Positions 1,309 to 61,885 of a stretch of DNA of 64,000 nt are shown here, piece after piece; the stretch's first letter is position 1; every line of letters begins with the position of its first letter. Under the pieces are notes generated by a model. The model worked only from the letters and a program-made list of their open reading frames with translations. It was not told the DNA's origin and did no database searches. The stretch spans positions 1,617,501-1,681,500 of the forward strand of contig NZ_SZWE01000001.1 of NCBI RefSeq assembly GCF_009669325.1, given 5' to 3'. Position numbers and translations under genes: made by a program. Origin of the DNA: Roseovarius bejariae (lineage in GTDB: Bacteria > Pseudomonadota > Alphaproteobacteria > Rhodobacterales > Rhodobacteraceae).

Positions 1309-1752
1309 ATGAAACATTGGATACTGGCCACCGCATTGGGGCTGGCCGCCCAAAGCGTCACGGCACAGGAGATGGTGACCTATACCACCGACCAGAGCTT
1401 TGGCGATGTGGCCTTCGGGCTGGAAAGTGCCATTCTGGACAAGGGGTTGGTCATTGATCACGTGAGCCATGTGGGCGAGATGCTGGAGCGGACACGGGCC
1501 GATGTGGGATCGGACGTGGTGCTGTTCACGCAGGCCGATACCTACAGCTTTTGTTCGGCGTCCCTGTCGCGGGAGGTGATGGAGGCGGACCCGATGAACA
1601 TCGCCTTTTGCCCCTATGACATCTTCATCGCCGAGCGGGCGGATAATCCCGGCGAGGTGACTGTGGGATACCGGGCCTTCCCCGAGGGCGAGATGCAGAA
1701 GATCCAGGAACTTCTGGACGGCATCGCGCGGGCGGCCATCGGCATAGAGTGA
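1309..1752 (+). CDS. DUF302 domain secreted protein
   Basis: 147 residues with a cleavable-looking signal peptide (MKHWILATALGLAAQSVTAQ), followed by a DUF302-like domain that starts MVTYTTDQSFGDVAFGLE and carries the conserved hydrophobic strand pattern. It is expected in the periplasm; the biochemical function of DUF302 proteins is unknown to me. ATG 1309 is preferred over TTG 1306 because GGGAGAGG at 1294-1302 is suitably placed. The FNR box upstream suggests induction at low oxygen. The next 409 bp hold no gene, only two repeat elements. Confidence 0.8.
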   Translation: MKHWILATALGLAAQSVTAQEMVTYTTDQSFGDVAFGLESAILDKGLVIDHVSHVGEMLERTRADVGSDVVLFTQADTYSFCSASLSREVMEADPMNIAFCPYDIFIAERADNPGEVTVGYRAFPEGEMQKIQELLDGIARAAIGIE

Positions 1753-1775: not shown

Positions 1776-1860
1776 AAACGTACGACTTGTACGTTTTACC
1801 CCCGGTTTTCGTACGAAAATCGGGGGTTTCGTTTTGGCAATCGTACGAGTCGTACGAAAA
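1776..1860. repeat. Composite CGTACG repeat, copy 1 (A-B-A')
   Basis: Three palindromes lie in series: A at 1777-1795 (arms AACGTAC/GTACGTT), B at 1799-1826 (CCCCC arm, core TTTTCGTACGAAAA, GGGGG arm, then a T-rich run, so a terminator-like hairpin) and A' at 1841-1860 (TCGTACGAGTCGTACGA). It starts 24 bp after the DUF302 stop. The same order recurs at 38298-38382 and 61804-61885. No gene is visible in 1753-2161. Confidence 0.85.
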
Positions 1861-37262: not shown

Positions 37263-38297
37263 ATGGCCGCGCAAAAGACGATCCTGAGGGCCCTTGCGGG
37301 CGAAACACTGGAGACACCGCCGATCTGGATGATGCGGCAGGCAGGCCGCTACCTGCCGGAATACCGCGCCACCCGCGCCGAGGCGGGCGATTTCCTTTCC
37401 TTGTGCTATAACAGTGACTTGGCCACCGAAGTCACCCTGCAACCGATCCGCCGCTACGGCTTTGACGCGGCGATCCTTTTTGCCGACATCTTGCTGGTGC
37501 CACAGGCGCTTGGCGCGGATTTGTGGTTTGTCACCGGCGAAGGCCCGCGTCTTTCGACCATCACCAACGAGGCCGGGTTCAAGGCCCTGAAACCGGCCGC
37601 CGATATCCACGAAACCCTAAACCCCATCTACCAGACCGTGCGTAACCTTGCCGCAGCGCTGCCAAAGGAAACCACCCTCATCGGATTCGCCGGCGCGCCC
37701 TGGACCGTGGCGACCTATATGATCGCCGGACAAGGCACGCCCGACCAAGGCCCGGCCCATGCGCTGAAGGCTGAAAACAAAGAGCTTTTCGAGGCACTGC
37801 TGAACCGCCTGACCGAGGCCACCATCGAATACCTCTCGGCCCAGATCGAGGCAGGCGCGGAATGCGTCAAACTCTTCGATAGCTGGGCCGGATCGCTGAA
37901 AGGTGAAGATTTCGACAACTACGCGACCGCCCCGGCGAAACGCATCATTTCCGAACTCAAGGCCCGCCACGGCGACATCCCGGTCATCGCCTTCCCACGG
38001 CAAGCCGGGGATAAGTACATAGGATTCCACGAAAAAACCGGGGCGGACTGTGTCGCACTGGACGATTCGGTCAGCCCCGAATGGGGGGCCGCCAATGTGC
38101 AAACCGCGGGCTGCGTTCAAGGGAATCTGGCGTCAAAACATATGGTTACAGGCGGCGACGATCTTGTACGCGAAACCAGGCACATCGTGGACGCCTTCAA
38201 GAACGGGCCGCATATCTTCAATCTCGGCCACGGCATCACCCCCGACGCCGACCCCGATAACGTGCAACTGATGATCGATACGGTGCGCGGCGGGTAA
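37263..38297 (+). CDS. hemE: Uroporphyrinogen decarboxylase
   Basis: 344 residues, removes four carboxyl groups from uroporphyrinogen III. The hallmark [17 protein letters not shown] (residues 20-36), [13 protein letters not shown] and [14 protein letters not shown] are intact. GGAGG at 37252-37256 fixes the start at 37263. A TTGACA at 37213-37218 could be the -35 box. The composite CGTACG repeat begins right after the TAA, and its middle hairpin ends in a T run, serving as terminator. Confidence 0.96.
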
Positions 38298-38382
38298 TTT
38301 CGTACGAGTCGTACGCTGAAGGGGCCATTTTCGTACGAAAATCGGCCCCTTTTTCAGAATAAATCGTACGAGTCGTACGAAA
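38298..38382. repeat. Composite CGTACG repeat, copy 2 (A-B-A')
   Basis: A at 38298-38315 (TTTCGTACGAGTCGTACG), B at 38320-38350 (AGGGGCC arm, TTTCGTACGAAA core, GGCCCCT arm) followed by T's at 38351-38354, and A' at 38362-38382 (AATCGTACGAGTCGTACGA then AA). It begins at the first base after the hemE stop. Confidence 0.88.
38320..38354 (+). terminator. hemE terminator within repeat copy 2
   Basis: Seven-base GC arms AGGGGCC/GGCCCCT enclose a palindromic CGTACG core and are followed by TTTT, an intrinsic terminator by shape. Confidence 0.75.
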
Positions 38383-38460
38383 CTGGCCAATCGAACGGTG
38401 CGGATGGCCAATGTTAACCTTTTCGCGCAACCCTGCCTCGACACGACAAAAGGCAGAGTC

Positions 38461-38700
38461 ATGTTCATCGAAGTTCTCAGCAATGAATTCCGCACCAGGT
38501 TCCGGGCCTACCTCGACCACCACCTCACCACCGGGGATCGTATCCTCGTCACCCGCCACGGCGAACCCGTGGGCGCATGGGTGAGCCATCGGGATTTCGA
38601 ACGCCTGGAAGACGCCGACAACAGCCGCGAGGAATTCCTTGAACAACAGCACCAACAACGGATGCGCGATTACCGCATGTTGCGCGACGATCAGATGTAG
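38461..38700 (+). CDS. Phd/YefM-like antitoxin domain protein without adjacent toxin
   Basis: 79 residues from ATG 38461. EVLSNEFRTRFRAYLDHHLT followed by GDRILVTRHGEPVGAWVSHRDFERLED matches the prevent-host-death fold (the R-H-G-x-P-V box). The C-terminal helix (EFLEQQHQQRMRDYRML) is where toxin would bind. The 210 bp downstream contain only repeats and no toxin frame, so it is an orphan or a stand-alone DNA-binding protein. The open frame continues upstream to 38404. Confidence 0.7.
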   Translation: MFIEVLSNEFRTRFRAYLDHHLTTGDRILVTRHGEPVGAWVSHRDFERLEDADNSREEFLEQQHQQRMRDYRMLRDDQM

Positions 38701-58065: not shown

Positions 58066-58130
58066 CCCACCTATCCCCATCGGTGGGACACCCCTCCCCA
58101 ACGAGGGGCGCTTATCTGGAAGGGTAGCAG
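58066..58130 (+). ncRNA. serC leader RNA motif (candidate)
   Basis: Upstream of serC two stems lie close together: CCCACC/GGTGGG at 58066-58087 and CCCCT/AGGGG at 58091-58108, followed by GCGCTTATC and the ribosome site GGAAGGG. A serC RNA motif in this position is described for alphaproteobacteria as I recall; the match here is by position and shape only. Confidence 0.6.
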
Positions 58131-58132
58131 AA

Positions 58133-61067: not shown

Positions 61068-61796
61068 ATGCAACCGATGTACGCGATCCCTGATATCCAC
61101 GGCCAAAAGGCCCTGCTTGATCATGCCCTTGCCTTGATCGACGCCGATGGCGGGCGTGATGCGCGGGTCGTCTTTCTTGGGGACTTCATCGACCGTGGCC
61201 CCGACAGCCGCGGTGTGATCGAAACGCTGCTTCAGGGCCAAGAAAACGGGCGCGACTGGATTTGCCTGCGCGGCAATCACGATACCTACCTGCCGCGCTT
61301 CTTCGATGCGGGCGAAGCCTATACCAGCAAGGGGCACCCGGACCTGCCGTGGTGGGCCGCACGGCTTGGGGGCGATTCCACGCTGGCCAGCTATGGCATT
61401 TTGATCGAGGGCAAGACCGATGCGCAGATCCTCGAAGAGACCCGCGCCAAGGTGCCACGCGCACACCGGGATTTTCTGGCGGCCTGCCCCCTCTGGCACC
61501 GCGAGCCGGGTCTGATCTTTGTCCATGCGGGCCTGCGCCCCGGCATCGCGCTCGAAGATCAGACCGACGAAGACCTGATGTGGATTCGCGAACCCTTCCT
61601 GTCGGACCCGCGCGATCATGGCGCCCTCGTGGTGCATGGCCACACCGCGCTTGACGCCCCCTGCCATCATGGCAATCGCGTGAACCTTGATGGCGGCGCG
61701 GGGTGGGGGCGTCCGCTGTCTCCGGCGGTGATCGAGGATGGCAAGGTTTGGCTGCTGGCCGAGACTGGCCGACAACGACTGAAGCCGGTCGATTGA
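61068..61796 (+). CDS. Calcineurin-like metallophosphatase, PrpA/ApaH type
   Basis: 242 residues. Motifs: YAIPDIHGQ (the usual Gly before D-I-H-G is Pro), FLGDFIDRGPDS, LRGNHDTYL, FVHAGLRPG and VVHGHTALD, as in serine/threonine protein phosphatases and diadenosine tetraphosphatases. ATG 61068 or 61077 is the likely start; upstream ATGs lie inside the repeat. Substrate undetermined. The third CGTACG repeat follows seven bases after the stop. Confidence 0.88.
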   Translation: MQPMYAIPDIHGQKALLDHALALIDADGGRDARVVFLGDFIDRGPDSRGVIETLLQGQENGRDWICLRGNHDTYLPRFFDAGEAYTSKGHPDLPWWAARLGGDSTLASYGILIEGKTDAQILEETRAKVPRAHRDFLAACPLWHREPGLIFVHAGLRPGIALEDQTDEDLMWIREPFLSDPRDHGALVVHGHTALDAPCHHGNRVNLDGGAGWGRPLSPAVIEDGKVWLLAETGRQRLKPVD

Positions 61797-61803
61797 CCCC
61801 GAC

Positions 61804-61885
61804 TTTCGTACGACTCGTACGACACGCGCGTCGCAGCCCCTGATTTTCGTACGAAACTCGCACCCTTTTCGTACGAGTCGTACGA
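61804..61885. repeat. Composite CGTACG repeat, copy 3 (A-B-A')
   Basis: A at 61804-61822 (TTTCGTACGACTCGTACGA), B core at 61844-61856 (TTTTCGTACGAAA, without the GC arms of the other copies), A' at 61866-61885 (TTTTCGTACGAGTCGTACGA). Confidence 0.85.

Follow-up and report, generated by a model that had tools for sequence, protein, structure and literature searches.

The three intergenic elements of the window (the whole analysed stretch of 64,000 nucleotides, C1:1617501-1681500 of the 3.50-Mb genome of Roseovarius bejariae) are probably phased arrays of DNA-recognition boxes, each array serving a candidate sequence-specific DNA-binding protein or oligomer. This reading is drawn from sequence comparison. 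The geometry of the elements and the boxes themselves are conserved. The words in the boxes differ between species, yet they are common to unlinked loci. In a clade of three species, the elements are located at gene ends.

The features of the window were the following (window positions):
1309..1752, + strand: ORF upstream of element 1, without a Pfam match
1778..1857, + strand: element 1 (A-B-A'), with GTAC boxes at 1780, 1789, 1811, 1843 and 1852; it starts 25 bp past the stop of ORF 1309-1752
1798..1827, + strand: GC-armed, terminator-like hairpin around B in element 1, with 13 pairs (7 G-C) and a T-rich tail after it
37263..38297, + strand: hemE (uroporphyrinogen decarboxylase; PF01208, E 4.7e-113), upstream of element 2
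38300..38380, + strand: element 2 (A-B-A'), with boxes at 0/9/31/64/73 and one added base in spacer 2; it starts 2 bp past the hemE stop
61068..61796, + strand: calcineurin-like phosphoesterase gene (PF00149), upstream of element 3
61806..61885, - strand: element 3, with the architecture of elements 1 and 2, inverted; it starts 9 bp past the stop of 61068-61796

Each element contained five GTAC-centred boxes at offsets of 0, 9, 31, 63 and 72 bp (64 and 73 for the last two in element 2). They form two 17-bp palindromes, A and A' (TCGTACGA-S-TCGTACGA, ≤3 mismatches), with a TTTCGTACGAAA core (B) between them. All 12 occurrences of TCGTACGA in the window were within the three elements (0.22 expected), and so were all six matches to the 17-bp A site with ≤3 mismatches (0.05 expected). 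The original prediction of three elements was confirmed by direct reading of the sequence, and its coordinates were right within 3 bp. Its A-B-A' order was found at all three places, but element 3 is inverted relative to elements 1 and 2. Its direction can be told from the asymmetry of the element (A-to-B 26.5 bp, B-to-A' 36.5 bp), in which B is nearer to one A. Other details had to be corrected. B is present once per element and not in two copies, and the distances to the upstream stop codon (25, 2 and 9 bp for elements 1, 2 and 3) replace a predicted range of 0-24 bp.

In the own genome, 57 exact A sites, 52 A-A' pairs and 70 matches to a five-box layout independent of the words were found, with no match in any of the controls. 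The motif could have occurred at chance frequency or without enrichment between genes, and neither was the case: the 57 A sites and 52 pairs stand beside controls of 0, and the gene contexts of the copies (below) show the enrichment. The copies are dispersed extragenic palindromes, as in REP and REPIN families. They are also spread over the chromosome, as are sites of the Noc, SlmA and MatP type: 66 places were listed on C1, with 4-9 per 241-kb bin (the list is incomplete for the - strand). The dispersion from bin to bin was low (p 0.017), which comes from the incomplete list and is not relied on, and the skew of the gene-end stretches was ambiguous for origin or terminus.

The exact composite was present in three of 84 congeners, with 52, 38 and 37 copies (control 0). 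A scan of 84,980 species genomes, which may omit the own genome, returned 75 stretches, all in two Roseovarius assemblies (MMSF_3281 and an uncultured MAG). The word-free five-box layout was found in six of the 84 congeners (70, 70, 62, 19, 17 and 3 matches; the control was 0 except for one match in one other genome). In a family sample of 394 genomes, nearly all one per genus, only the own genome had this layout, with control matches in three genomes.

A core of four boxes at 0/9/18/31 with ≤1 mismatch reached further. It was found in 21 of the 84 congeners: 15 had 6-70 matches, G020 had 4 and five had 1-3, a few matches overlapping on a single element. These last five are at noise level, because the controls gave 0-3 matches per genome. 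The core occurred in seven of the 394 genomes of the family sample, and more than two matches were found only in the own genome (33) and in G426 (5, at four places; its own control was 2, and the largest control in the family sample was 4). G426 belongs to another genus of the family, and its GTAC arrays (loci L320, L324, L328 and L330) read as 0/9/18/39, not as 0/9/18/31. The core was present in three of 385 genomes of the class sample, the two others having one match each, and the backward control gave 24 matches in one unrelated genome. In a 23-genome tree, carriers and non-carriers were interspersed, and the four species with GTAAG-type boxes clustered. No composite match was found in viral contigs, where seven stretches had a lone A site, and the plasmid collection gave no match.

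Conservation was measured in 127 copies from three species (51, 38 and 38, with 51 in the own genome). The A-A' spacing was 63 bp in 121 copies, 62 bp in four and 64 bp in two. In the 121 copies, the B core was near-invariant, although the selection needed only ≤5 mismatches to a 14-mer, and the centre of A was G or C in 118 copies. Conservation of the A site is inflated in G029 and G099, since exact A-A' words were used to retrieve their copies. Both flanks were homologous in 55 interspecies pairs of copies, which share members and are not independent; they involved 94 of the 127 copies and 38 of the 51 in the own genome. In the 52 ortholog pairs with both copies of 80 bp, the 40 box positions showed seven substitutions in all (0.0034 per site), and the B core three over 624 cells. 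The rate was 0.378 per site at the 31 spacer positions and 0.272 per site at the four-fold sites of the flanking genes (5226 sites). The net length was unequal in 2 of the 55 pairs. Hence, the spacers evolve freely, while the boxes and the total length are nearly fixed. The fixed spacing and the conservation of the boxes relative to the spacer and four-fold rates strongly support the earlier proposal of a selected module rather than decayed sequence. Seven of eight long unalignable flank stretches had changed length, which are too few for a firm contrast with the elements. Free alignment gaps (49 in 4332 element columns, 131 in 6226 flank columns) are not relied on, because saturated spacers induce the aligner to open gaps.

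The words were compared at the hemE 3' slot in the best 30 of the 81 congeners with a match. GTAC-type boxes at 0/9/18/31/63/72 (exact or one letter off, the offsets not all filled) were found in 10 congeners, and GTAAG-type boxes in four (by reading of the listed offsets). The remaining 16 had neither, one of them being borderline. The boxes began 2-5 nt past the stop. At this slot, G099 had the layout 0/9/31/63/72 with other words, mostly TGTACA, and its genome mixes TCGTACGA and TGTACA words. Neighbouring elements with unlike words (TGTACA-like beside TCGTACGA-type) were seen at G099:C5:99275/99358, G099:C15:57174/57267 and G029:C18:50634/50723. GTAAG-type matches numbered 13 in G023, 10 in G071, 11 in G018 and 11 in G093 (control 0), with 1-3 in eight other genomes. 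They include the ispD copies of three species and the hemE copies of three.

In G069, all 40 four-box matches, the ispD copy included, had the allowed mismatch in box 9 (38 GTCC, 2 GGAC); as matches were selected by pattern and copies with more changes go unseen, the agreement in its other boxes is by construction. In 400 kb of G020, seven copies were found with a pattern made from its hemE copy and relatives. Five of them carried CTAC at 18, six carried GGAC at 31 and all seven carried GTGTCC at the 63 position, a word absent from the search pattern. Because the offsets of G020 carry different words, the idea of a single protein that reads the same word everywhere is an oversimplification. 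The dialects had exceptions, which weigh against the array reading: the hemE copy of G069 reads GCAC at boxes 9 and 31, ispD of G020 keeps GTAC at box 31, and G093 and G012 deviate at ispD (below). That unlinked loci have words in common, and that these words are unlike between species, points to a trans-acting reader. A role of CcrM (GANTC) at the centre of the A site was considered and rejected, since neither the TGTACA copy at the hemE slot of G099 nor the listed GTAAG words retain GANTC.

One copy, at C1:20285-20360 (L228:1501-1576), lies within the coding sequence of ispDF and is present in three species. We compared ispD in the best 30 of the 80 congeners with a match. In this alignment, the four core boxes occupy identical codon positions, directly after the IHD motif. 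The residues at the boxes are tyrosine-rich in carriers and ordinary in non-carriers. No sign of a MITE insertion was found at the core boxes, the stretch from the IHD motif to the last box being free of gaps in the 30 species, and the IspD domain of the own genome aligns at full length (profile 2-220 of 221 to residues 4-220). The 63 and 72 boxes occur in the three-species clade only, in a stretch of species-variable length, so an origin in place applies to the core boxes only. Intact boxes were those with a gene-strand reading of GTAC or TTAC. With cut-offs of at least two intact boxes and at least four genome-wide matches, which were set after the counts had been seen, 15 species had both the ispD boxes and the genome-wide system, one had boxes only (G087, an 85% complete genome), one had matches only and 13 had neither (Fisher p 2.4e-6, without phylogenetic correction). 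The species with matches only was G012, with 31 genome matches yet no box at ispD. TTAC, the gene-strand form of the GTAA dialect of G023, G071 and G018, stands in three of the four ispD boxes of these genomes. Box 9 of ispD is GGAC in G069 and G076, and ispD of G093 has GTCC in two boxes. Because the core boxes arose without insertion and track the carriers of the system, a simple mobile element or a structure in the transcript is disfavoured, and selection by a DNA reader that acts in trans is favoured. Boxes were also seen in other genes: an A site and B are in frame in tsaD of G033, and G093 has a GTAAG-type copy in frame inside a gene with molybdopterin-binding domains (L345:1501-1535). 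A string nearly identical to this last copy was listed in G023, G071, G018 and G035, in this gene or in others.

These data bear directly on a mobile repeat family (REP/REPIN or MITE), whose copies would have been spread by a transposase and have landed at gene ends. Such a family would explain why copies are intergenic and in both orientations, why a spacer consensus is visible across copies and why unlike elements sit side by side in three neighbouring pairs. It is unlikely given the in-frame boxes in ispD, in tsaD of G033 and in the molybdopterin-domain gene, and given the copy pairs with both flanks homologous. Moreover, the Y1 transposase (RAYT, PF01797) was absent from all 12 Roseovarius genomes searched and was found in 5 of 14 control genomes. 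In its simple form, the mobile miniature element of the original prediction is therefore not supported: the ispD core boxes show no insertion, most copies are in orthologous pairs and no transposase was found in the 12 genomes. Like the present elements, REP, BIME and REPIN sequences with RAYT are palindromes of which a genome keeps tens of intergenic copies near gene ends over a long time. The present elements differ from them in being composite, with a fixed 63-bp spacing and GTAC words.

Gene contexts came from a crude ORF caller, whose first version miscalled hemE. This version placed 55 of the 127 copies between convergent genes, 54 in tandem contexts and 15 between divergent genes (partly miscalls), with three undetermined and none inside a called gene. 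In the second version, the numbers were 54, 53, 13 and 7, respectively. As 13 copies were between divergent genes in the second version, gene ends are not the sole location. In the window, 9 of 58 adjacent gene pairs were convergent (gene list hand-corrected at hemE). The edge of the element was ≤30 nt past a stop codon in 90 of the 109 tandem or convergent copies (90 of 127 overall; three species). Outside the three-species clade, placement at gene ends was less strict: among 42 loci mostly from other species, some of which are chance matches, 12 were ≤30 nt past a stop and seven were inside an ORF.

The closeness to stop codons would suit a transcription terminator or a 3' UTR RNA element, with hairpins (A, B and A') acting in the transcript, and some copies are good terminators, having GC arms and a T tail around B like intrinsic terminators. 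A scan of 1500-2200 for terminator-like hairpins found one site, that of element 1 (the mean of region shuffles was 0.7). In element 2, a terminator-like hairpin around B was seen by eye, while the scan listed only a different hairpin on the - strand. Element 3 had no terminator-like hairpin in the scan and lacks the GC stem. The terminator of the original prediction thus stands for element 1 and fails for element 3. Across 121 copies, the mean pairing of the arms was 12.78, compared with 12.07 for shuffled partners (z 2.2), and 40 of the 121 had strong stems where 32.9 were expected. Terminators are found in some copies only, because the arms around B pair barely above chance. What is invariant is the box sequence itself, not merely the pairing, and the spacing is fixed. 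Relative to the gene in tandem contexts, 21 copies had the same and 33 the opposite orientation, and this mixture favours DNA over RNA. Together with the copies inside ORFs, these results make an element acting in the transcript improbable. An Rfam search of the window gave no match at the elements; it found only a tRNA and a serC leader RNA (RF00517) at 58081-58132.

A phased array read by a putative DNA-binding factor fits the data best. Fixed length with free spacers, three- and six-turn spacing, mixed orientation and copies in genes all point to DNA, not RNA. In the proposed mechanism, GTAC-core boxes would stand 9 bp apart in a module, and the modules would be separated by 31 or 32 bp (three helical turns) and by 63 bp (six turns). 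A cooperative complex could thus occupy one face of the helix. The spacers would then be free in their letters and fixed in their length. If the specificity of the reader drifts and its many genomic sites follow, species dialects with a conserved geometry would result. We infer the protein as reader, its cooperative binding and its role. The protein-binding sites of the original prediction are the best reading of the data, for a putative protein of which the analysis found no candidate. As for the role, nucleoid organisation or occlusion along the whole chromosome is a first guess, and a rather doubtful one, made because the sites are spread over the chromosome. The sites would lie for the most part in intergenic DNA, where their occupancy does no harm.

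DNA uptake sequences are often located at gene ends, as are the present elements. Their species dialects of short words, which are also seen here, are described for Neisseriaceae (PMC3630211). A signal of uptake or molecular drive, with DNA of the local dialect being preferentially taken up and recombined, would account for the dialects, the origin in place at ispD, the coding and non-coding copies and the gene ends. It is nevertheless very unlikely. Copies are far fewer, about one listed copy per 43 kb (the list being incomplete), and in the window TCGTACGA occurs only in composite elements and not as a single short word in high copy number. Moreover, a rigid multi-box geometry over 76 bp far exceeds known uptake words. 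Concerted evolution, in which gene conversion between copies rather than selection by a reader spreads the words, would explain words common to the matches of a genome, but it has even less to recommend it, since conversion tracts should homogenise spacers too, which vary freely while the boxes do not, and some 5-nt spacers within ispD are unlike those of intergenic copies.

The DNA-binding reading was also compared with known proteins. Noc, SlmA and MatP bind tens of single palindromes with stable words over the chromosome. The present elements resemble them as tens of palindromic, putative protein sites on a chromosome, whereas they are multi-box arrays with drifting words. BldC and Xis-like proteins bind cooperatively and head-to-tail on repeats about 9 bp apart. 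Here, the repeats are also about 9 bp apart and cooperative binding is proposed only; the three-turn-spaced modules come in addition, and no such protein is linked to the elements. A literature search on this comparison gave no relevant match.

It is possible, though we put it forward tentatively, that the arrays form a hitherto undescribed system of addresses along the whole Roseovarius chromosome. The reader, with several domains or subunits, would recognise a lock of six positions (0, 9, 18, 31, 63 and 72) at tens of sites. Every box would have a co-evolving word to itself, and the dialects would shift jointly and even reshape coding genes such as ispD. In the titles and starts of abstracts, which cover the literature in part, no description of these elements was found. 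If true, the elements would document, in nature, how a DNA-reading factor and tens of its sites changed their specificity jointly within one genus, even inside a gene of isoprenoid synthesis. The co-evolution of a reader with a large set of sites would become directly testable, and a new factor organising alphaproteobacterial chromosomes or gene ends may be revealed.

A dedicated regulon was considered and rejected. The neighbours that were recognised have housekeeping functions unrelated to one another (hemE, ispDF, leuA, thrS and rpmB, the last three recognised by eye; the annotation was not systematic). In the window, hemE is followed by a gene for a Phd/YefM-like antitoxin at 38398-38700.
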